Shown: positions 443 to 17,700 of the stretch, in pieces | Layout: every line of letters starts with the position of its first letter | Numbering within the stretch: the first letter of the stretch is position 1 | Assembly: GCF_900129775.1 (NCBI RefSeq) | Contig: NZ_FQWV01000008.1 | Span: 1 to 64,000 of the forward strand | Length of the DNA stretch: 64,000 nt | Source of the DNA: Halobaculum gomorrense | GTDB taxonomy: Archaea; Halobacteriota; Halobacteria; Halobacteriales; Haloferacaceae | Direction: 5' to 3' | Program-made: the position numbers and the translations under genes | The notes under the pieces: generated by a model | Told to the model about the DNA's origin: nothing | The model's input: the letters and a program-made list of their open reading frames with translations, nothing else | Database searches by the model: none

Positions 443-2266
443 GACAGCGTTGCCACTCAGGAATCCGGATTGTCCCGGACAGAGTATCTCTCTATCCGAT
501 TCCGGTCTCCTTCTTCAGCAGCGTGAGCGTATTGTCGGCTGTCACAATGGGTGAGTGCTCGTACTCATCGGTCAACTCAACCTGCACGAGCAGATCGACC
601 GCTCGCCAGATAGAGTACAGCAGACACGCAAACGCGAAGTAGAAGAATCGAAGCCCGAAATCCTTCGACGTCGTCGCTGCCATGAACCGTTTGATCGACC
701 TGTACCCACTCTCGATCTCCCAGCGATAGCCATACTCCGTGAGGTGCCCACTCCCGCAATTCGTCATGAACACCGAGTACTGCCGGTGATCGTCGTGCTC
801 GGAGTCTTCATTCCGGCGGTAGACCAGCGTCGTTTCGTGCCACTCGTTCTTGCCCAGATGGAGCGTCCGGTCGGTTTCATACCGGTCTTGGTCCCGCTGG
901 AGTAATCGCTTGGCTTGGGCTTTCTCGCTGGTCTGCATCCGCTTCGGCACGACATACGACAAGCCACGCTGGCTAAGCATCTCCAGGACGTGCTGACTAT
1001 CGAACTCTCGGTCCATCAGCACGTTATCGACGTGGACGAGCTCTTCAGCCGAATCCAGCAAATCCCCGACGATCTCCTTGCGTGACTCGCCTTTCCGTAC
1101 CGGGCGGGCATCAAGCACGAGTGGGATAGCGTTGCCGACCAACTGGACTGTCGCCCATTGGTAGGCGTACTCGTCGGTCTTCTCCTTCGTCCCGATGATT
1201 TCGTCTTCGTGGCCCGTTCTATCACCGGTGAAGGGGTTGGCCTCGGTGATATCGATGGCGATGATTCCGGCTCGGAAGAACTCCTCTGTCTCCTCGACTT
1301 CGCTCAGGAGCGTGTTGACGGCCTGTCGGTACATCTCGCGAGTCTCTGATACCGAGAGATTACGAATCTGCTCGCGATGGGCGTGACCTAACGGCGTCCG
1401 GTTTCGAGTTGACTCGTAGGTGAAGCTACGAGCGCCCTCGTTAGCAGCCAGCCGCTCGCGAAGCCCCAGATACGTCTGTAAGTCCCAGTAGGCGTTCTCG
1501 TGGATCTCGCAGCCGTCCCCACGATCCAGCGAAAATGCCGGGAAGACGACGCGGCTGACGTGGTCGGTGACCTTCTCTGCCTGCTCCAACGTAGTTTGAT
1601 CGTCCGGGTCTGACTCACCAGACTCGTTCCCGTGGTATCGGAGCTTTCGTGTCGGTTCACGCGGAACCCCGACACCTGCATTCTGGGCTTTGATGAGGAT
1701 CGTTCGAGCGGCTGTCTCCACTGTCTCTCGGAGGTCAGGGGTGAACCGCTCGTGCCAGCTTCGCCACAGTGTCGACTGGTCCGGGATCGTCCCGAAACCC
1801 AGTTGCTCGCAGAGGTCAGGACGATTCCCGAGATAGTCGACGAGTGCGGTTTCGTGCTCCCACCCGTGGCATTCTTGCAGGACGAACACCCGGAAGAGAG
1901 TGGCCATCTGGTAGCGTGTCGGCCCCGCATATCGATCGTGGGCGCTGAACCGGAAGTAGGCTAGCGGGAGTGCACAGACGAACTCCTCAACTGAGTGGTG
2001 GCCCTCGTGGTCGAACCACGTCTCTGAGACTGTCCTGACATCCGATTCCAGTCCAGCGAGCGACGTTCGATCATACAGTGGTGTCGAATTATAGGTCGGC
2101 CACTCGTGGTACGACATCATCGCAATCGATCGAAAGACGTCTCGGCGCGTGTGCTGAGTCGATTCCATTCGGTATAGCGAGAAAGGATCGCAAGAATGCA
2201 TCTGTCGTCGTAGCACATCCACTACATTGGGGCTCAAATCCATCGCCCATTTTGGCAACTACCGAC
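443..2266 (-). mobile_element. Insertion sequence with DDE transposase
   Basis: The transposase gene is bracketed by weak inverted ends that share GTTGCCA (gacagcgttgcca near 443 and, inverted, tggcaactaccgac ending near 2266). The limits are approximate, and no clear target duplication was found. The element abuts the 3' end of the Tat-exported protein gene at 2333. Confidence 0.55.
492..2243 (-). CDS. IS4-like (DDE) transposase, 583 aa
   Basis: Transposase that would cut and rejoin the ends of its own element. The N-terminal part contains a helical DNA-binding region; the catalytic part follows. The middle has an acidic TAIDITE-like strand (IIAIDITEANPF) and later a conserved block VLMDREFDS, with the C-terminal YRWEIESGYRSIKRF typical of DDE_Tnp_1 enzymes (Y-x-x-R-x-x-IE pattern). 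It is clearly related to the transposase at 40624-42132, which has the blocks VLCDREFDS and YSRRWQIENEYNSLKY. The open frame extends 15 bases upstream to a TTG at 2258, but that lies inside the putative terminal repeat, so I prefer the ATG at 2243. The frame is intact. The exact IS family was not determined. Confidence 0.85.
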   Translation of the reverse strand: MDLSPNVVDVLRRQMHSCDPFSLYRMESTQHTRRDVFRSIAMMSYHEWPTYNSTPLYDRTSLAGLESDVRTVSETWFDHEGHHSVEEFVCALPLAYFRFSAHDRYAGPTRYQMATLFRVFVLQECHGWEHETALVDYLGNRPDLCEQLGFGTIPDQSTLWRSWHERFTPDLRETVETAARTILIKAQNAGVGVPREPTRKLRYHGNESGESDPDDQTTLEQAEKVTDHVSRVVFPAFSLDRGDGCEIHENAYWDLQTYLGLRERLAANEGARSFTYESTRNRTPLGHAHREQIRNLSVSETREMYRQAVNTLLSEVEETEEFFRAGIIAIDITEANPFTGDRTGHEDEIIGTKEKTDEYAYQWATVQLVGNAIPLVLDARPVRKGESRKEIVGDLLDSAEELVHVDNVLMDREFDSQHVLEMLSQRGLSYVVPKRMQTSEKAQAKRLLQRDQDRYETDRTLHLGKNEWHETTLVYRRNEDSEHDDHRQYSVFMTNCGSGHLTEYGYRWEIESGYRSIKRFMAATTSKDFGLRFFYFAFACLLYSIWRAVDLLVQVELTDEYEHSPIVTADNTLTLLKKETGIG

Positions 2267-2332: not shown

Positions 2333-4495
2333 TCACTCTGGATGAGGAGACATGATCGCGTTGTCGTGGAACAGCGGGTCGAACTGGTAGAAGACGAACC
2401 CAGCCGCTCGCGCTCCTTCGATGGAGGTGGTGATGTCGTCGTTCCCCCCCACCGGGGTCCCCTGGGAATAGGTCTCGTCAATCCAGTAGCCGTCGCTGCC
2501 ATCGGTCCCGTTCTTGAAGAGGGTACCGTTCTCCGGGCTCAGGTACCAGAACGGCTTCCAGAGCGGCGTTGGCGGAATGATATCGCCACCGCCGTCCGCG
2601 GGATTGCGGAGGAACTTCGGGAAGATGAGCTCCTTGTCGCCGTCACCGTCGATGTCCATGTTCGTCAGGTTGCGAGGGTGAACGTCGCTGAGGTCGCCCT
2701 TCGGCATCTTTGCGACGCCGAACTGCTCTGTTTGACGGCCCATCAATAGCCCCTCGGTGCCATCGCTCTCGTGGAGTTTCTCCTGGCTGGGGTTGTCGGC
2801 GGTCCCGATGATCTTCTTCGGCGGGTTGAACCGCCAGGTGTTGTCGCCGCTCGTCGTCGAGAACCGGTAGCCGGTGTGGGATTCCCCATCGCCGTCCGTG
2901 AATGATTCCAGCTGCTCGCGATCAGTCGATCGCGGGAACACATCGTACTGCTGGATAACGTCTTTGTGCGGACGGAACCCCCAGCCAGAGCGCCACTGCA
3001 TCTCGCCGCTTTTGGGCGCGCCATACAACGGCTTGAGATTCATGATCTCGAAACTGTGGCTCGCCCCCGACAGGTCCAGCGAGTCCGGGGCCGTCCGGAT
3101 GTCGTCACCGACGCGGTAGCCGAAGTCGACCGCCCTGTAGTAGTGGGTGTGATCGTCGAGATTGATTACCTTCACGTCGAGCTGGTCGCCCTGGCTCCAG
3201 GGCTCCATCGTCTTGGCGCCGTCTGGCCCGTCGCCGTACATCTCGTTGTTGGCGTAGACAGTAACGTAGCTGTACGGCCCGAACTTTCCGCGGTCGATGC
3301 CTTCCTTCTCGAGGACATCCCAAGCTTCCGGCGGGAGCTGGAGTGGGTCGGCCATGAGATCGACCCACCCGTCGGCCGTTCCCCGCGGGTCGGTGCTGGA
3401 GTCGGTGAGCATCGCGTTGACCTCGCTCGGGCTGGCCGTGTCGTCCAAAACCGCACTAGCGACGGTGTAGGCTTTCTTTTCAGGGGCAGCGTCGCCGATG
3501 TCGTCAATCGAGAGGTTTCGGTTCCGGACGGCGAAATTCTTGCTTGGCGGATCGAGGACCACCTGGCCGTCGATATCGGTCTCGAAGACAGGCTGGAGAA
3601 ACTGAATCTTTGGCGGGTGATCGCGCCAGCCCCACGTGTAGATGCCCCGAAGCAGTCCGAGGGGGGGCTTGTTGACCGAGATGTGTGCGACCTCGTCAGT
3701 GTGGACCTCGCTCCAAGTGGAGTCGAAAATCTTGAACGGGAGTCCGGCCGCGTCGTTGACGGCTGTTCCGGGGGAGAGTTCTTCTCGTTCCAATGAGTAG
3801 ACATGGTAGTTCACCCGGAGCAGATCGTTCGGATGGGCATCGACAGGGACCCGCAGGAGGAACGTGTCGGCGTCGAACGACTCGCCGTACCAGAGCATGT
3901 TGACGTCGACCTCCCAGACGGTACGCTCCTTGCCGCCGATGCTCGTCTGGGTCTCCCCGGAGTCCCGCAGGCGCTTCATCTTGTACTCGCCGTCAATCTG
4001 GTCCTCGAGGTGGCCGCCCTGCGAGTAGTTCAGCAGCGGGAATCCATCGTAGATCCGCCCCTCGGTGTTGCCTTTGAGGATGGCCTCGATCTCATTGGCG
4101 GCGTCATCCATGGCGGCGGTGTCGCCGTCGTCGGCTGCCGTTGCCAGCTCGTCTAGTGCAGCCTGAAGGTCGTCGTGTGGGTCGCTGACTTGGGTGATCT
4201 CGTGGCCACGAACGCTGGTCGCACCGTCCGCATCCTCGACCGTATGACTGACCACCTGGTGAAGTTCCCCGTCTTTGACCTGATCGGTATTCGGGATACG
4301 GATCTCCGATCCGGACAGTTTCGTCTTGAGGGGTTCGAGGATTCCCGGATCATTGGGATCAGTCGATGCGGCCGCTGCTGTTCCGACTGCTGGCAGTCCA
4401 GTTGCCGCAAGTCCAGCTGCACCGCCCACTAGTCGCATGTAGTCTCGTCGGCCTAGGCCCGCACCTGACGTGTTCGATTTATTGTTTTCTGTCAT
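2333..4495 (-). CDS. Tat-exported protein of unknown function, paralogue A (720 aa)
   Basis: Secreted protein of unknown role. A twin-arginine signal (RRDYMR, residues 16-21, then a hydrophobic run and an Ala-rich end) predicts folded export. The mature protein has no family I recognise. It contains a D-D-H-T-H-Y-Y motif in the middle, a calcium-type DxDxDG loop near residue 614 followed by KELIFPKFLRNP, and an invariant C-terminus ending HDNAIMSPHPE. It is closely similar, end to end, to the 718-residue protein at 13649-15805. That one sits beside a giant multicopper oxidase; this copy has no oxidase and is followed only by a transposon. Likely extracellular. A link to copper or redox chemistry is inferred only from the context of its paralogue. 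Confidence 0.85.
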   Translation of the reverse strand: MTENNKSNTSGAGLGRRDYMRLVGGAAGLAATGLPAVGTAAAASTDPNDPGILEPLKTKLSGSEIRIPNTDQVKDGELHQVVSHTVEDADGATSVRGHEITQVSDPHDDLQAALDELATAADDGDTAAMDDAANEIEAILKGNTEGRIYDGFPLLNYSQGGHLEDQIDGEYKMKRLRDSGETQTSIGGKERTVWEVDVNMLWYGESFDADTFLLRVPVDAHPNDLLRVNYHVYSLEREELSPGTAVNDAAGLPFKIFDSTWSEVHTDEVAHISVNKPPLGLLRGIYTWGWRDHPPKIQFLQPVFETDIDGQVVLDPPSKNFAVRNRNLSIDDIGDAAPEKKAYTVASAVLDDTASPSEVNAMLTDSSTDPRGTADGWVDLMADPLQLPPEAWDVLEKEGIDRGKFGPYSYVTVYANNEMYGDGPDGAKTMEPWSQGDQLDVKVINLDDHTHYYRAVDFGYRVGDDIRTAPDSLDLSGASHSFEIMNLKPLYGAPKSGEMQWRSGWGFRPHKDVIQQYDVFPRSTDREQLESFTDGDGESHTGYRFSTTSGDNTWRFNPPKKIIGTADNPSQEKLHESDGTEGLLMGRQTEQFGVAKMPKGDLSDVHPRNLTNMDIDGDGDKELIFPKFLRNPADGGGDIIPPTPLWKPFWYLSPENGTLFKNGTDGSDGYWIDETYSQGTPVGGNDDITTSIEGARAAGFVFYQFDPLFHDNAIMSPHPE

Positions 4496-5899: not shown

Positions 5900-6831
5900 T
5901 GCTCTATTGAAAATGCGGTACGGTAGTACGATCATAGCTTCTCGGTGATCTTCTTGATGTTGTGGATCGCGAACATGAGGATGATCTCACGGAACTGGCG
6001 GTACCAGAACCGCGAACGCAAGGCGGAGTCTTGCGTTCGCTTGATCGTTGAGTAGGACGTTTCTGCCATCCAGCGTTGCGTGTACCCCTTCGCTCGGTTG
6101 AGGGCGTTGTGAGCTGCTGCCATCGGTGTTGAGCCGCGGTGGTGAACAAGATAGTCGAGATCTAGCGCAGCCAGCTCGTACTCGGTGTGCCAGTCCTGGA
6201 AGCCGTTGTCGGCGAGTACGGCCCGCAGGTCGTCCGCGTTCCGGCGGACGACCCGCGGGCCAGCCCTTGTATCGTGTTCCCGCTCGATACAGCAGTGGAC
6301 GTCCAGCACCGCAAGTGACTCTGTATCGGTCAGCGTTGTCGCTTTGATCGTCTTGACGGTCCGTCCACTTCGCTGGAGGTAGTACTGGGAGGCTTGCTTG
6401 CGTTCGAAGAACGTGCTATCGAGGGCGACCTGTCCAGACTGGCGGAGTTGCTGCGCCGACGCGCGCAGCAACGCCCGCCAGACGTACATCGCGTAGCGGT
6501 CGAGCGAGTGATAGAACGTCGTTGGATCAGGCAGCGCATCCGGGTGAAGTCCAAGGAGTGCGCACACCTCCGGCATGAGTCCAAGCCGGTCGACGAGTTC
6601 GGTGAAGGTGTGGCTCTCTTCTTTGCGAATACAGTGGGCGACGATGTGGGCCTCGCGGGGAAGCCCGCCGGAGGCGGGCCTTCCCGCTCGATCCCCTAAC
6701 GCTTGTTTAGCTACGCGTCGGACGTTCCGAACGAAGTCGAGGAGTGCGATTGCCATATCCCCCTCCTCGGCTTCGACTTCTCAAACGCTTCCGGAGTCAT
6801 CCCGACGCAGTCCGTCGTTTTCAATAGAGCA
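5900..6831 (-). mobile_element. IS5-type insertion sequence, about 930 bp
   Basis: Inverted ends TGCTCTATTGAAAA at 5900-5913 and its reverse complement ending at 6831 flank a single complete transposase gene. No clear target duplication was seen. The element separates the tandem HxlR gene from the three-regulator cluster. Confidence 0.75.
5932..6756 (-). CDS. IS5-family transposase (274 aa)
   Basis: Transposase of a small haloarchaeal IS5-type element. The N-terminal half contains a helical region (MPEVCALLGLHPDALPDPTT). The DDE core shows VALDSTFFERK (first Asp), LAVLDVHC, DNGFQD (second Asp) and a C-terminal AETSYSTIKRTQDSALRSR, where the Glu-x6-Lys pattern of the Y-(2)-R-(3)-E-(6)-K signature is recognisable. 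The reading frame is intact and the terminal repeats are present, so it could be active. Confidence 0.85.
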   Translation of the reverse strand: MAIALLDFVRNVRRVAKQALGDRAGRPASGGLPREAHIVAHCIRKEESHTFTELVDRLGLMPEVCALLGLHPDALPDPTTFYHSLDRYAMYVWRALLRASAQQLRQSGQVALDSTFFERKQASQYYLQRSGRTVKTIKATTLTDTESLAVLDVHCCIEREHDTRAGPRVVRRNADDLRAVLADNGFQDWHTEYELAALDLDYLVHHRGSTPMAAAHNALNRAKGYTQRWMAETSYSTIKRTQDSALRSRFWYRQFREIILMFAIHNIKKITEKL

Positions 6832-8987: not shown

Positions 8988-11900
8988 TCACTCGCTGGCT
9001 AATTCGAGCGGGACGATCGCCTCGACGTCGGTATTCGTCGTGTTTCGCACGAACTCGTCGAGACCCGAGTCCGGCGGTGAGGCGACGAGATCGAGCAGTG
9101 CCTGACCGCCTTCGATCCGTAACGCTTCGCCATTCGTCCGCCCCACGAGAACGTCGCGGCTCCCGTCGTCGGCTTCCTCCGTCAGTGTTAGGTCGGTTCC
9201 GGCCCGCTCGCCCGCCGTCTCGCTCAGCACCTGCAGGTCAGCCCCGGAGAGGTCGCGGACGTGACCGGGCGGGGTGTCGAGGAACAGGTAGACGCCTCCC
9301 CCCTCGTGGGCTCCGATATCGCTGTCCGGGACGCCGACGACCACGTCCGGACCATCGCGCCCGGTCAGGTCGCCGACCGCGACGACGTAGTCGGGACGCG
9401 CCACGAGCGGGACGTCGTCGGCCCTGTCGGGGAGCGGATGGGTACCTCTCTCGGAGGTGGTCCCCTCGACGTGCTCGTTCCCGACCCGGAGTATCCCCCA
9501 CATGCCGGACTCCAGGCGGCGGCGCTGTTTCGTCTCCTGATAGATGTAGTCCCCCGGCGTCTCGGTGGACCCGCCCGCACCGCCGATGAGTTCGAACGCA
9601 TCGCATTTGCCGGGGATGTACTGCCCGTCGACGCCGATGACCGGCGACTCCGGGACGCCCTGGTACCGCTGCCACTGGTGGCCCGCGAGGTGGAACGAGA
9701 CCCCACGCGCCTTGTCGGCCGCGTGAGCCACCCGGAACACGACGGGGTCGCCCGGGTCCGTCCGCAGGATCGGCGTGGCCGGGTCGCCGTGGACCCGTGA
9801 GCTGTAGACGAGGTGTTGTCTGTCGTCGGTCTCGAAGCGGCGGGCGAACGGCGCCGAGCGGTAGTTAACCGCCCCGTATCCCTGGCTCTCGTCGTTCCCG
9901 AGCTGGTTGCACGGTGCCCCGGCGTCCATCTCGTCGCCCGGTGGGACGACACACCTTGATGAGTCCTCCTCGTTGACGATGTACTGTGCGTCCGCGAACA
10001 CCAGTGCCTCGGTCCGGAAGTCCTCCTCCCCGTCCGGGGTCTTCACCATCGCGGCCGCGGCGGTCCCGGACGCCTCGGCCGTCCCGTTCTCGAGGGTGAT
10101 CGCGTCCCGCTGCTGGACGATCAGCTGGCCGTAGGCACCGTGGTGACGGTTGTTCCGCACGTCGGCCCAGTCGTTCAATACGACCGTCCCCAGCTCGATG
10201 TCGGCGTACCACTCGTAGGTGACCGTCTCCCCTCGGCCCACGGTCGTATCGTGGTTGAACCCCACCGCCGCCCCGTCGGAGCCGTTCACGTCGTAGCGGA
10301 TCTGGTTGGGATGCAGCGATATCCGGGTCGAGCGGTCCCACTCCCGGTCGACTCGCATCAGCGGATGCGCGTGGTCGTCGTCGAGGCTGGCAGGGAGGTC
10401 GTTCGTGAGGTTGATCCTGATGCGCTCGCCGGCGTTCGCGCGCAGGGTCAGCGGTTCGGGCTCCCGCACCCCCTCCCTGATCTCCTCGACGTACCGGTCG
10501 GGGGCGAAGACGATTCCGTGAGGATCGTGGTCCCCGTGGTCGTTGTACGGGATTTCCGTCTGGAACGCCGTCACGTCGAACTCCCGGACAGGAGCGTCGT
10601 CAGGCGAGGGCTCTCCGGGACCGTCGGGGGACTCGGGGGGCTCCCCGACGTTGGGGTTCCGTCGGGCCGACTCGTCGGCCGGCAGCAGCCGGTCGTCGCC
10701 CTCTGCGTAGAGGCGTCTGGCACGCTGACCCGTCTCGGTCCAGTCGAATTCGGCGAACGGTGCCGGGTGTCCCATCTGTTCCAGGTCCTCGTTCGTGACC
10801 GTCTCGCTCGGCGACCCGTGGTCCTCCAGCGGCCGGAGGTGATCGACCTCGCCGCCCCAGACGCGCACGAGCCCCCACATCCCGGTGAACAGGTCGTCCA
10901 CGACGTTCGACCCGTACCGGTAGTCCCGGACCGGCAGGCCGTCCGGGTTGGTCATCCTCTCGAACGGGAGCTGGGTCGCCTCCGGCTCGACGTCGAAGGT
11001 GAACGCCTCCGACGGGCCGATGATCTGCGAGACGCTGTCGGAGGGGGCGAACCCCTCCGGATCGATCCGGAGCCCGTCGAGCGCGAAGTTGTGACTGTCC
11101 TCGTAGGCACCCTGCAGGATCCGTATCTTCAGCGGGTCCCCCTCGTACGCTTCCAGGACTGGCGTCGCCGGATCCCCGTGGACGGCCGAGCTATGGACGT
11201 ACGCCGAATCCGCGTCGTTCCGGTCGTAGAAGGGCGCGTTGCGGTAGTTGATGGCGAACGTCCCGAGGTTGACGTCGTGCTCCCGGTTCGTGTTGATGAG
11301 CTCCCCGTTCCGGTCCCGCAGGGGCACGAACCCGTGGTAGTGCAGTCCGATCTCTCGGAAGTCCTGCTCGTTGGCGTCCTCGGGGGTCAGGATGTCGGCC
11401 TGTGCGCCGCTGAAGATCGGGTCGCCCGAGTGGGGGTCGCGCCACTCCGAGTCCTGTGGCTCGACGAAGATGCCACAGAACATCCCGTGCATCCCCTCCT
11501 CGATGGCGAAAATATGGTCGTGGAAGAATATCGCCCCCGTCTCGTCGGCGTACCAGCGGTACTCGTTCGTCTCCGTGGGGTCGGTGCCTTGGCGATAGTT
11601 GTAGCCCATCCCGAGCGAGTCCGACCCGAGCACGTCGTACCCGACGAAGTGCGGGTGGATGGAGGCGCCGACGTCGAGTTCGTTCTTCAGGCGCAGCACC
11701 ACCTCGTCGCCGACGTTGGCCCTGATGAACAGCGGTTCGGGGTTCATCTCCCCGTTCCGGACCAGTTCGGCGTCCTGAACCGGCACCGTCCCGTCGGTCA
11801 CACCGGGGACGTTCGCCTCCTCGAGGACGTAGACGATGCCGTCCGGGTCGTGTTCGCCGGCGTCGTTGTACGCGACGGACGCCTCCATCACCGCGATGGT

Positions 11901-13460
11901 GTACTCGACGGTCCGGTTCGGATCCTCCGGGATCGGGTCGGCGTACGGCGCCCCCGGCCGGACGTCGTCACCGAGGGCTTCCCGTTCCTGCTCCGTCGGG
12001 TCACGCGGGTCCGTACGGGACAGCTCGGGGGGCTGGGGGGCATAGTAGCCCACCGGGTCCTCGACACCCTCGACCGCCTCGATGGCGTCGCCGACAAAAT
12101 CCGGATAGCCGGGCGTAGAGGAGTCCGCAGGGACGAGCCCGCTCGTGTTCGGGAGCGACCGGAGGGACTCCCGTTCCTTGTCGAACACTCGCATCCCCGC
12201 CCACATCCCCTCGGCGTAGTGGGGAAAGAGATGACAGTGGAAGAGGACGTCACCCGCACTGCCGTGGACGTACCCGGCCCCGACTTCGAACGCCTCCTCG
12301 AAGCTCATCTCCGGGCGGACCGTCCCTTCACCGTGTCCGGCGACGAGGAACGACTCGAACGCGTCGCCGAGCCCGATCGTCTGTGCGTCGACGGTATCGG
12401 CGTCGGTTCTCGCGGCCTCCTTGTACCGGTGGTTGTGGAGGTGGTGGACGTGGTTCTCCTCGTGGCTCGCGCCGACGAAGACCAGTTTGACTGGGTCACC
12501 CGAGTACGCCTCGTAGATGTTGTCCCCGCCGCCGGGGTCGCCGTTCGTCCAGGAGTGGTAGAACGCCTCCTTCAGGTCGCCGTCGGGCAGTTCGTCGTTG
12601 ACGCGCTGTCCCATCGGGTCCGACCGGTAGTTGATGGCGTGGATCGACTGCTCGGTGTCGCTGTCCGGCCACGTGACCTCCGGGGCAGTCCCCTCGGGGG
12701 TGTGGTACATGGCGACGAACTCCCGGTAGCTCGTCCCCAGCCCGTTCGGGTCGTGGACGTCGGCACGGAGGCCGCTCCGGAGCGGCTCTCCCGTCTGCGG
12801 ATCGGTCCACGTTGCACCCGGCGGTTCGACCACGACGGCCCCGAACAGCCCCCGCGAGAGGTGGTTGGCCTCCTCGGGCGGCTCGGCGGCGCTGTCGATG
12901 GCCTGATGGGCGCCATCGTAGAAGAAGTGGGCTCCCTGGTGAGTCGCCTCCCAGCGGTAGGTCCGCGACTCGCCCGGCGCGACCGTCGTGTCGTTGTTGT
13001 ATCCGACGGCCATCCCGTCGGAGGTCCGCACGTTGTACGGGAGGCCCGTCTGGTGGATCGAGGCACGCTGGTCGAGGTGGTTGACGAACTCGATCTCGAT
13101 GGTATCGCCCTCGTTTGCCCGGATGACGAGCGGCTGGATCGGGGACGGGTCCTTGCGGTTACCGTCCTCGACGGTCGCGTAGGCGTCCTCGAGCGGCTCG
13201 CCCGACGCCTCTCTCACGGCGTCGAGGTCCTCCTCGAGGACGTACATCGCGCCGTTCGGCACGTGGAGGTCGAACCGGTTCATCACGATGTCGACCTCGA
13301 CGGCGTGGACGGTGAACGTCCGAACCTCGCCGCCGGCCGTCCCGCGCGAGAGCTGGAGCCGCTCTCTGACCCGTTCGTCGTCGAGGAGTGACGTCGAAAT
13401 CGGTAGGAGTCCGATACCCTGGACGAACGTTCGACGCCGGATCTGCTCCGAGAGGCCCAT
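8988..13460 (-). CDS. Giant Tat-exported multicopper oxidase with three two-domain repeats (1490 aa)
   Basis: Extracellular copper oxidase. A Tat-like signal (RRRTFVQG, residues 8-15) precedes three tandem cupredoxin-pair repeats, about 45-430, 518-870 and 958-1327. Each has a strand of the type LxIRANxGDxIxIxxxN and a late GMWxxxRV. Copper motifs: HVHHLHNH (337-344, L3-like) and HCHLFPHYAEGMW (408-420, L4 with type 1 copper ligands) in repeat 1; HPH (602-604, L1-like) and HDH (647-649, L2-like) in repeat 2. Repeat 3 keeps the fold signature but little of the copper set. So one trinuclear site is likely, formed between repeats 1 and 2, with motif order permuted relative to laccases. The C-terminus (about 1357-1396) has an FG-GAP-like stretch. 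Length resembles large bacterial Mn(II)-oxidising or ceruloplasmin-type enzymes. The substrate is unknown. Probably leaderless: a TATA-like box lies about 25-30 bp before the ATG. Confidence 0.88.
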   Translation of the reverse strand: MGLSEQIRRRTFVQGIGLLPISTSLLDDERVRERLQLSRGTAGGEVRTFTVHAVEVDIVMNRFDLHVPNGAMYVLEEDLDAVREASGEPLEDAYATVEDGNRKDPSPIQPLVIRANEGDTIEIEFVNHLDQRASIHQTGLPYNVRTSDGMAVGYNNDTTVAPGESRTYRWEATHQGAHFFYDGAHQAIDSAAEPPEEANHLSRGLFGAVVVEPPGATWTDPQTGEPLRSGLRADVHDPNGLGTSYREFVAMYHTPEGTAPEVTWPDSDTEQSIHAINYRSDPMGQRVNDELPDGDLKEAFYHSWTNGDPGGGDNIYEAYSGDPVKLVFVGASHEENHVHHLHNHRYKEAARTDADTVDAQTIGLGDAFESFLVAGHGEGTVRPEMSFEEAFEVGAGYVHGSAGDVLFHCHLFPHYAEGMWAGMRVFDKERESLRSLPNTSGLVPADSSTPGYPDFVGDAIEAVEGVEDPVGYYAPQPPELSRTDPRDPTEQEREALGDDVRPGAPYADPIPEDPNRTVEYTIAVMEASVAYNDAGEHDPDGIVYVLEEANVPGVTDGTVPVQDAELVRNGEMNPEPLFIRANVGDEVVLRLKNELDVGASIHPHFVGYDVLGSDSLGMGYNYRQGTDPTETNEYRWYADETGAIFFHDHIFAIEEGMHGMFCGIFVEPQDSEWRDPHSGDPIFSGAQADILTPEDANEQDFREIGLHYHGFVPLRDRNGELINTNREHDVNLGTFAINYRNAPFYDRNDADSAYVHSSAVHGDPATPVLEAYEGDPLKIRILQGAYEDSHNFALDGLRIDPEGFAPSDSVSQIIGPSEAFTFDVEPEATQLPFERMTNPDGLPVRDYRYGSNVVDDLFTGMWGLVRVWGGEVDHLRPLEDHGSPSETVTNEDLEQMGHPAPFAEFDWTETGQRARRLYAEGDDRLLPADESARRNPNVGEPPESPDGPGEPSPDDAPVREFDVTAFQTEIPYNDHGDHDPHGIVFAPDRYVEEIREGVREPEPLTLRANAGERIRINLTNDLPASLDDDHAHPLMRVDREWDRSTRISLHPNQIRYDVNGSDGAAVGFNHDTTVGRGETVTYEWYADIELGTVVLNDWADVRNNRHHGAYGQLIVQQRDAITLENGTAEASGTAAAAMVKTPDGEEDFRTEALVFADAQYIVNEEDSSRCVVPPGDEMDAGAPCNQLGNDESQGYGAVNYRSAPFARRFETDDRQHLVYSSRVHGDPATPILRTDPGDPVVFRVAHAADKARGVSFHLAGHQWQRYQGVPESPVIGVDGQYIPGKCDAFELIGGAGGSTETPGDYIYQETKQRRRLESGMWGILRVGNEHVEGTTSERGTHPLPDRADDVPLVARPDYVVAVGDLTGRDGPDVVVGVPDSDIGAHEGGGVYLFLDTPPGHVRDLSGADLQVLSETAGERAGTDLTLTEEADDGSRDVLVGRTNGEALRIEGGQALLDLVASPPDSGLDEFVRNTTNTDVEAIVPLELASE

Positions 13461-13648: not shown

Positions 13649-15805
13649 CTACTCCGGATGGGGTGACATGATGGCGTTGTCGTGGAACAGCGGGTCGAAC
13701 TGGTAGAAGACGAACCCGGCCGCGCGTGCGCCCTCCATGCTGGCGGTGATGTCCGCGTTGGCGCCGACCGGCGCACCCTGGGAGTAGGTTTCGTCGATGC
13801 GGTAGCCGTCGCTGCCGTCCGTCCCGTTCTTGAACAGCGTGCCGTTCTCCGGGTCGAGGAAGAGGAACGGCGCCCACAGCGGCGTCGGCGGGATGATGTC
13901 CCCCCCATCGTCGGCAGGATTTCGCAGGAACTTCGGGAAGACCAGTTCCTCCTCGCCGTCCCCGTCGACGTCCACGTTCGTCAGCCCGCGGGGGTGGACG
14001 TCGCTCAGGTCGCCCGTCGGCATCTTCCCGATACCGTACCCGGGGGTCTGCTGGCCGACGAGGAGCCCCTCGGTCCCGTCGTACTCCTTCAGCCGCTGTG
14101 AACTGGGATCGTCGGCGGTACCGATGATCTTCTTCGGGGGGTTGAACCGCCAGGTGTTCTGGCAGTGCGTAGAGGAGAACGTGTAGCCCTCCCGTTCGTT
14201 CCCCTCGCCGTCCGTGTACGGCGAGAGGTACTCGCTGTCGCTTCCCCGCGGGAAGACGTCGTACTGCTGGACGACGTTCCTGTGCGGGCGGAAGCCCCAG
14301 CCGGTCCGCCACTGCATCTCCGCGCTCTTGGGCGCACCGTACAGCGGTTTGAGGTTCATGATCTCGAAGCTGTGACTTGCCCCACTGAGGTCCAGCGAGG
14401 TCGGGGCGCTCCGGATGTCGTCACCGACGCGGTAGCCGAAGTCGACCGCCCGGTAGTAGTGGGTGTGGTCGTCGAGATTGATCACCTTCACCTCGAACCG
14501 GTCGCGCTGTTCCCAGGGCGTCATCGTATCGGCGCCGTCCGGCCCGTTGCCGTACATCTCGTTGTTGGCGTACACCGTGACGTAGCGGTAGGAACCGAAC
14601 TCACCCCGCTCGATTCCCTCCTCTTCAAGCACGTCCCAGGCCTCGGGCGGGAGCTGCAGCGGATCCGACATGAGGTCGATCCAGCTATCGTAGGTCCCGC
14701 GAGGCTTCTTGTCGGCGTTCGTGAGCATCCCGGAGACCTTGCCCGGCCCCGCGTTCTCCTCGAGGACCGCGTAGGCGACGTGGTGGGCCTTCTTTTCGGG
14801 GGCGGCATCGCCGATATCGTCGAGCGAGAGGCTCCGGTTCCTGACGGCGAAGCTCGCACTCTTGGGGTCGAGGGTGACGTTCCCGTCGACCTCGGTCTCG
14901 AAGACGGGCTGGAGGAACTGAATCCTCGGGGGGTGTTTGCGCCAGCCCCAGGTATAGATGCCCCGGAGGAGGCCGAGTGGTGGCTTGTCGACGGAGATGT
15001 GGTGGACCTCGTCGCCGCCGACCGCACTCCACGTGGAGTCGAAGATCTTGAATGGGAGCCCGCCCATGTCGTTGACGGCCGTCCCGGGGGAGAGTTCCTC
15101 GCGGACGAGCGAGTAGACGTGGTAGTTCACCCGGAGCAGGTCGTTCGGGTGAGCCTCGACGGGGACCCGCAGGAGGTACGTATCAGCGTCGAAGGACTCG
15201 CCGTACCAGAGCATGTTGACGTCGACCTCCCAGACGGTGCGCTGGGTACCGTCGAGGCTCTCTTTGGTCTCGCCGGAGTCCTGCAGGCGCTTCATCTTGT
15301 ACTCCCCGTCGACGTGATCTGGGAGATCACCACCTTTCGAGTAGTTCAACAGCCGGAACCCGTCGTAGATGCGGCCCTGCGTTTCCCCGGTGAGGATGGC
15401 CTCGACCTCCTTGGCAGCCGCTTCCATCGCGGGCTTGTCGCCATCGTCGGCCGCGTCGGCGAGGTTTCCGAGCGCGGTGCTGAGGTCCTCGTGTGGGTTA
15501 CTGACCTGCGTAATCTCGTTGCCACGGACGCTAGTTGCCCCGTCGGCGTCCTCCGAGGTGTGGCTCACGACCTGCTGGAGTTCGCCGTCCTTGACCTGGT
15601 CGGTGCCGGGGATCCGCACCTCGTTGCCGGATAGTTTCGTCTTCACAGGTTCGAGGATCCCCGGCTCGTTTGGATCGAGCCCTGCTGCGGCAGACGTTTC
15701 GCCGAGGCCGATCCCAAGCGCGGACGCGCCTGCGAGCCCACCGATCGTTTTCATGTAGTTCCGTCGCCCAATGCTGAACGCATCGCCGATGTCCTTCCGT
15801 TCCAT
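13649..15805 (-). CDS. Tat-exported protein of unknown function, paralogue B (718 aa)
   Basis: Upstream neighbour of the giant oxidase (188 bp apart, same strand). The Tat signal (RRNYMK, residues 14-19) is followed by a hydrophobic stretch. The mature part begins LDPNEPGILEPVKTKLSG, as in paralogue A at 2333-4495, and the two align over their whole length. Common features are the D-D-H-T-H-Y-Y block, the DVDGDG loop (about 612-617, dockerin/VCBS-like calcium ligands), FVFYQFDPLFHDNA and a terminal SPHPE. I do not recognise the family. Close pairing with a secreted oxidase suggests a partner, substrate-binding or matrix protein. The gene is more GC-rich than paralogue A, so the copies have had different histories or have drifted. 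Confidence 0.87.
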   Translation of the reverse strand: MERKDIGDAFSIGRRNYMKTIGGLAGASALGIGLGETSAAAGLDPNEPGILEPVKTKLSGNEVRIPGTDQVKDGELQQVVSHTSEDADGATSVRGNEITQVSNPHEDLSTALGNLADAADDGDKPAMEAAAKEVEAILTGETQGRIYDGFRLLNYSKGGDLPDHVDGEYKMKRLQDSGETKESLDGTQRTVWEVDVNMLWYGESFDADTYLLRVPVEAHPNDLLRVNYHVYSLVREELSPGTAVNDMGGLPFKIFDSTWSAVGGDEVHHISVDKPPLGLLRGIYTWGWRKHPPRIQFLQPVFETEVDGNVTLDPKSASFAVRNRSLSLDDIGDAAPEKKAHHVAYAVLEENAGPGKVSGMLTNADKKPRGTYDSWIDLMSDPLQLPPEAWDVLEEEGIERGEFGSYRYVTVYANNEMYGNGPDGADTMTPWEQRDRFEVKVINLDDHTHYYRAVDFGYRVGDDIRSAPTSLDLSGASHSFEIMNLKPLYGAPKSAEMQWRTGWGFRPHRNVVQQYDVFPRGSDSEYLSPYTDGEGNEREGYTFSSTHCQNTWRFNPPKKIIGTADDPSSQRLKEYDGTEGLLVGQQTPGYGIGKMPTGDLSDVHPRGLTNVDVDGDGEEELVFPKFLRNPADDGGDIIPPTPLWAPFLFLDPENGTLFKNGTDGSDGYRIDETYSQGAPVGANADITASMEGARAAGFVFYQFDPLFHDNAIMSPHPE

Positions 15806-16688: not shown

Positions 16689-17700
16689 TTCGCTCATGGG
16701 TAGAGGATTGTTGGTCAGGTTGCAGCAGTAGCTGAAAGTCGTAGCGGGCAAGGGTGGCGCGTTCACGCCACCCGACGAAAGCATGATTCCACTCAAGACG
16801 TTCGTCTCGGAGCGTCGCGCCGCGAACCTGCTCCGACAGGTTCGCTGGCGTGACGGCGTCTATTGCCCACGCTGCCGTGCCGAATCTGTGATTCGGTACG
16901 GCAGCTATCGGGTGTTCCAGCGATACCGCTGTAAGAATTGCGACCGCACGTTCAACGACCAGACGAGCACCGTCTTTGAACACTCGGCGGTCGAACTCAG
17001 GAAGTGGTTTCTCGCGGTCTACACCTACATCCGCTTCAACACCAGTCTTCGGCAGTTAGACGTTGAAATCGATGTCTCCTACAAAACTGTGTACCGGCGC
17101 GTCCAGCGCTTCCTGCGAGCGCTGGACGCGCCTCATCCACAACTCGAAGGGCCGGTCGAGATTGACGAACTGTACGTGAAAGCCGGGCTCAAAGGCCGCG
17201 AGCGCGACCGACCGTCGCGCTCGCGTGGCCTGTCCACGCGCGGACGTGGCACGTACGAACAGGACAAGCTACCCGTGTTCATTCTGGCTGATCGCGGCAC
17301 CGGCGAGCGCTACGTGATCCCAGCGAAAGCCGCCGACGAATCGACGATTCGACTCTTGCTTGCTGACCGCAATGAGGAGTCGCTGACCGTCTATACTGAC
17401 GGCTTTCGGGCGTACGAACCACTTGACGAGGACGACGCATTCGACCGCGAATACGTCGTCCACGGCGACGGAGAATACGCCGATGGAGACGTTCACGTCA
17501 ATACCTGCGAGAGCCACGGATCGCTGGCGCGATCCTGGCTCTCGCCCCATCGAGGCGTCTCCAAGGACAAGCTCACACCGTATCTCAGAGCCTTTCAACT
17601 TCGTCGTCGTGTCTACCGAAAACCAGGGAAAGAAGCGCTCAAAACCATTCTTGAAACTGTACTCTAACTCACCAACAATCTACGCCACAAGAGCGAAGTG
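16689..17700 (+). mobile_element. IS1595-type insertion sequence
   Basis: Inverted ends: ttcgctcatgggtagagg... from 16689 and, inverted, ...ctacgccacaagagcgaa ending near 17698. They match at about 21 of 27 positions and include attgttggt. They enclose one intact transposase gene. Exact tips and target duplication are uncertain. Solitary relatives of these ends occur at 5765-5791 and 32213-32246. Confidence 0.7.
16783..17667 (+). CDS. IS1595-family transposase (294 aa)
   Basis: Transposase with an N-terminal zinc ribbon (CPRCRAESVIRYGSY...YRCKNCDRTF, residues about 29-60), a helix-turn-helix (SLRQLDVEIDVSYKTVYRRV) and a DDE/ISXO2-type core. The core shows EIDELYVKAG, VYTDGFRAYEPL and HVNTCESHGSLARSWL, where the Asn/Glu of the ISXO2 signature and the neighbouring His are visible. 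Complete and probably functional. Confidence 0.85.
   Translation: MIPLKTFVSERRAANLLRQVRWRDGVYCPRCRAESVIRYGSYRVFQRYRCKNCDRTFNDQTSTVFEHSAVELRKWFLAVYTYIRFNTSLRQLDVEIDVSYKTVYRRVQRFLRALDAPHPQLEGPVEIDELYVKAGLKGRERDRPSRSRGLSTRGRGTYEQDKLPVFILADRGTGERYVIPAKAADESTIRLLLADRNEESLTVYTDGFRAYEPLDEDDAFDREYVVHGDGEYADGDVHVNTCESHGSLARSWLSPHRGVSKDKLTPYLRAFQLRRRVYRKPGKEALKTILETVL

Follow-up and report, generated by a model that had tools for sequence, protein, structure and literature searches.

MnxG, the manganese oxidase of the Bacillus Mnx (MnxEFG) complex, belongs to a prokaryotic type of multicopper oxidase in which six cupredoxin domains are arranged in three repeats. In this type the trinuclear copper ligands lie only in domains 2 and 3 and the type 1 site only in domain 2, and a trinuclear site between domains 2 and 3 was described in 2013 for bacterial and for two haloarchaeal proteins. 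The family members include Hlac_1576 of Halorubrum lacusprofundi and Htur_3146 of Haloterrigena turkmenica, and an ancestor with three sites has been proposed (PMC3600357). Activity of the Bacillus Mnx complex needs MnxE and MnxF (PMC5622069). No structure or activity report was found for a haloarchaeal member.

The window analysed here is a stretch of 64,000 nucleotides of Halobaculum gomorrense (contig NZ_FQWV01000008.1). The oxidase encoded in it is of a known kind, MnxG-like, to which it adds a haloarchaeal member.

The oxidase gene and its copper ligands

The features of the gene are the following:

8988..13460, reverse strand: six-domain multicopper oxidase, MnxG-like, 1490 amino acids (open reading frame, match to 9bxa, Pfam)
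13371..13460, reverse strand: Tat signal peptide, RRRTFVQG and then a hydrophobic stretch (sequence, twin arginine in relatives)
12036..13325, reverse strand: repeat 1 (domains 1-2), with the type 1 copper ligands, L3 and L4 (repeat alignment)
12429..12452, reverse strand: L3, HVHHLHNH, residues 337-344; H337 type 1, H340 and H342 trinuclear (alignment of relatives)
12204..12239, reverse strand: L4, HCHLFPHYAEGM, residues 408-419; H408 and H410 trinuclear, C409, H414 and M419 type 1 (alignment of relatives)
10746..11921, reverse strand: repeat 2 (domains 3-4), with L1 and L2 (repeat alignment)
11649..11657, reverse strand: L1, HPH, within HPHF at residues 602-605; H602 and H604 (alignment of relatives)
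11514..11522, reverse strand: L2, HDH, residues 647-649; H647 and H649 (alignment of relatives)
9426..10589, reverse strand: repeat 3 (domains 5-6), with H1050 and H1257 as vestiges of the lost copper sites (repeat alignment)
9282..9386, reverse strand: single FG-GAP repeat of the C-terminal tail, degenerate (PF01839, 11.2 bits)

The reading frame is open over its whole length, and the four motifs L3, L4, L1 and L2 lie where the initial annotation had placed them. Cu-oxidase_3 (91 bits) and Cu-oxidase_2 (44 bits) were the only Pfam domains found in the oxidase. The N-terminus carries a twin-arginine motif followed by a hydrophobic stretch, MGLSEQIRRRTFVQGIGLLPISTSLL, and the arginine pair is common to most relatives in the alignment. 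Export in the folded state is expected of copper enzymes, and from its twin-arginine signal the oxidase is probably exported in this way.

Mutual alignment and off-register matches to MnxG define three homologous repeats at about residues 46-475, 514-905 and 958-1345, which hold the six cupredoxin domains. When the three repeats were superposed by alignment, all eight trinuclear histidines were found at the interface of domains 2 and 3, one of eight at that of domains 4 and 5, and two of eight at that of domains 6 and 1, where ceruloplasmin-type enzymes have their trinuclear site. The trinuclear ligands are thus confined to domains 2 and 3 and the type 1 site to domain 2, and the earlier proposal of one trinuclear centre spanning repeats 1 and 2 is borne out. 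A full extra set of ligands was looked for in repeat 3 and is not present; what remains there is one L1 histidine and one L3 histidine, L4 being absent. Most simply, the protein would be pseudo-threefold, its three interfaces being equivalent and two of them decayed.

Conservation of the site was followed in an alignment of 22 archaeal and five bacterial relatives. All 22 archaeal proteins, two of them from a Nitrososphaeraceae MAG, share every one of the twelve canonical copper ligands, and the sole exception among the bacterial proteins is that of Rubrobacter, with Phe in place of the axial Met. The L3 motif reads EENHVHHLH in most archaeal members versus KETHxFHxH in bacteria, the additional archaeal histidine replacing Phe.

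Among solved structures the best match is MnxG of the Bacillus Mnx complex (9bxa), aligned over residues 47-881 and 926-1332 with an E value of 1.2e-192; this value, together with the twelve ligands identical in the 22 archaeal relatives, rules out a chance resemblance. The score against the NCBIfam equivalog NF041487 (copper_ox_MnxG, a model of 1894 positions) is 153.8 bits, far below its cut-off of 3100 bits. An AlphaFold model of domains 1-4 made from 21 sequences reached a pTM of 0.66 and a mean pLDDT of 64, and a Foldseek search with these modelled domains ranked 9bxa first (E=2e-57, TM 0.71), in agreement with a predicted MnxG-like fold. As the copper loops of the model are of low confidence (pLDDT below 50), it is the homology evidence that places the putative copper site. 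We have little doubt that the protein has the MnxG-type architecture with its site between domains 2 and 3.

Repeat 3 and the C-terminal tail

Repeat 3 and the tail had initially been given a separate role, such as binding a substrate or a partner. More simply, since MnxG has repeat 3 too, this repeat is probably best read as completing the pseudo-threefold six-domain fold. The suspected FG-GAP-like tail is real in this family: three relatives score 27.5-51 bits for PF01839 in their tails, above the cut-off of 22.1. In H. gomorrense, however, it is degenerate. In most haloarchaeal copies a C-terminal tail, often 130-220 residues long, carries one FG-GAP repeat; the tail is absent from Priestia MnxG and from the few haloarchaeal copies that end near domain 6. 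It may serve for attachment or stabilisation.

Distribution and gene neighbourhood

Of the 391 genomes of the class that were sampled, 24 had the gene at E<=1e-60, about 6% of the sampled haloarchaeal species; among the sampled members of the genus it was detected in H. gomorrense only. Its occurrence in haloarchaea is sporadic, and several copies are plasmid-borne. The phylogenetic tree separates the archaeal proteins, as a clade, from the bacterial proteins (100/100) and groups the haloarchaeal proteins together (99/99), the H. gomorrense oxidase being placed with the copies of Halorientalis marina and of QH/QS Halobacteriales. Outside the Halobacteria, two MnxG-like genes occur in the Nitrososphaeraceae MAG (L079 and L081; JALDRC010000001.1 and JALDRC010000006.1); both keep all copper ligands, and the reading frame of the second is split. 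The Nitrososphaeraceae are an ammonia-oxidising lineage.

Across 23 loci no conserved operon surrounds the MnxG-like gene. MnxE and MnxF are recognisable in the Priestia operon. Neither was found in the H. gomorrense genome or in the flanks of 23 archaeal loci, Priestia alone being positive; this is a weak negative, since proteins so short and divergent could be missed. Of the Mnx complex, H. gomorrense has the MnxG subunit with all its copper ligands.

Five of 23 loci (L073, L074, L075, L076 and L080) encode small proteins belonging to a single cluster, at most a few kb from the MnxG-like gene, and the member of this cluster that was tested carries a CHRD domain (PF07452). A CHRD protein also adjoins the MnxG-like gene on a plasmid of Halalkalicoccus jeotgali (L094:2039-2845).

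The window also encodes two Tat-signal proteins of 718 and 720 amino acids (13649-15805 and 2333-4495, both on the reverse strand) which are 77% identical and fall outside all known Pfam, NCBIfam and PDB families; contig C5 of the same genome has a third copy. Full-length homologues of the pair were present, among the sampled Halobacteria, only in the own genome and in one other (G061). The neighbours P0002 and P0003 are unlikely to be partners of the oxidase, their homologues being found in two of 118 relatives (own genome and G061); G061 carries them yet gave no MnxG-like match, and the wider sample added one weak match. The single-sequence structure model of P0002 was unusable (pLDDT 34). 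PADLOC detected nothing.

Three genes related to transposition are located around the oxidase: a DDE_Tnp_1 transposase gene (5932-6756, reverse strand), an IS1595 type transposase gene (16783-17667, forward strand) and a transposase-like open reading frame of 588 amino acids (492-2258, reverse strand). Their presence suggests that the region is mobile and plasmid-like.

Proposed mechanism and substrate

In the mechanism that we propose, the three two-domain repeats would close into a pseudo-threefold ring whose three inter-repeat interfaces are equivalent, and a trinuclear copper site would be kept only between domains 2 and 3, where it would be fed by the single type 1 copper of domain 2. Electrons from the substrate would enter at the type 1 copper and pass over C409 and the H408-H410 link to the trinuclear site, at which O2 would be reduced to water. 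A cell-surface metal ion, with Mn(II) as the best candidate, would be the likely reductant. Reduction of O2 to water is established multicopper oxidase chemistry, and the conservation of all copper ligands makes it very probable that the protein is an active oxidase performing it.

Homology makes Mn(II) the leading candidate for the substrate, somewhat better than an even bet, and the full-length collinear match to MnxG upholds the link with manganese-oxidising enzymes made in the initial annotation. Failure to find MnxE and MnxF in the genome or near related genes leaves this substrate short of secured. The same copper architecture could act on Fe(II) or Cu(I), with ferroxidase or cuprous oxidase activity as in ceruloplasmin or the algal FOX1, a reading which we consider possible but on the unlikely side: the ferroxidases of Chlamydomonas and Dunaliella also have their trinuclear site in domains 2-3 (PMC3600357), the relatives in Hymenobacter and Microvirga have metal-efflux genes nearby, and the undetected MnxE and MnxF fit it as well, but the closest characterised homologue is a manganese oxidase and the haloarchaeal genes have no conserved operon for iron or copper uptake next to them. 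A laccase-like oxidation of organic substrates is improbable and ranks last of the three substrate classes, since the similarity to two-domain laccases, which share the cupredoxin fold and some local sequence (about 50 bits), is limited to single domains, while that to MnxG spans all six.

The weakest reading, with next to no chance of being right, takes the enzyme to be genuinely permuted and the order of its copper sites to be new: L3-L4 do precede L1-L2, unlike in laccase and ceruloplasmin, as had been noted when the motifs were called permuted, but the identical order is found in bacterial MnxG (9bxa and Priestia) and was published for the family in 2013, and the vestigial ligands at the other two interfaces fit differential loss instead. 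Natural MnxG encoded on a Priestia megaterium plasmid (L088) aligns collinearly with 36% identity over residues 46-1332 and 722 bits, versus at most 301 bits in registers shifted by one or two repeats, so that the domain order is that of MnxG and permutation is refuted. The order is the normal one of MnxG-type enzymes, and the central proposal of a site across repeats 1 and 2, right as it is, was already in print.

The H. gomorrense protein might even, though this is less likely than not, be a stand-alone archaeal Mn(II) oxidase working without MnxE and MnxF, whose C-terminal FG-GAP element would serve attachment or assembly at the haloarchaeal cell surface. Should its product act on Mn(II), the gene would indicate enzymatic manganese oxidation in hypersaline archaea; the open literature searched gave no report of haloarchaeal manganese oxidation by an enzyme of this sort. 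An MnxG homologue possibly working without MnxE and MnxF may be a simpler system for studying two-electron manganese oxidation.

Comparison with known systems

MnxG of Bacillus sp. PL-12 and Priestia has six cupredoxin domains as here, collinear over about 1290 residues, and the same placement of the twelve copper ligands. At the type 1 histidine after HCH, which natural Priestia MnxG retains, the 9bxa chain (1227 amino acids) has Ala, since by its entry title this structure is of the H340A complex, position 340 being the engineered Ala. In distinction to the H. gomorrense oxidase, Priestia MnxG ends after domain 6 without an FG-GAP tail and its operon supplies MnxE and MnxF, neither of which was detected for the haloarchaeal enzyme. 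The MnxG-like proteins of other haloarchaea, such as Halorientalis marina and Halomicroarcula rubra, are of the same family, most of them with an FG-GAP-type tail, and show ordinary divergence only (about 49-71% identity). Hlac_1576 and Htur_3146 belong to this family by their description (PMC3600357).

Ceruloplasmin, hephaestin and factor VIII likewise have three two-cupredoxin repeats with one trinuclear site at an inter-repeat interface, ceruloplasmin having retained its site at another of the three equivalent interfaces. The algal ferroxidase FOX1 of Chlamydomonas is described as having its trinuclear site between domains 2 and 3, as here (PMC3600357). The order of the copper sites in the H. 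gomorrense oxidase adds nothing new in itself, and illustrates that six-domain oxidases can retain any one of several equivalent interfaces.
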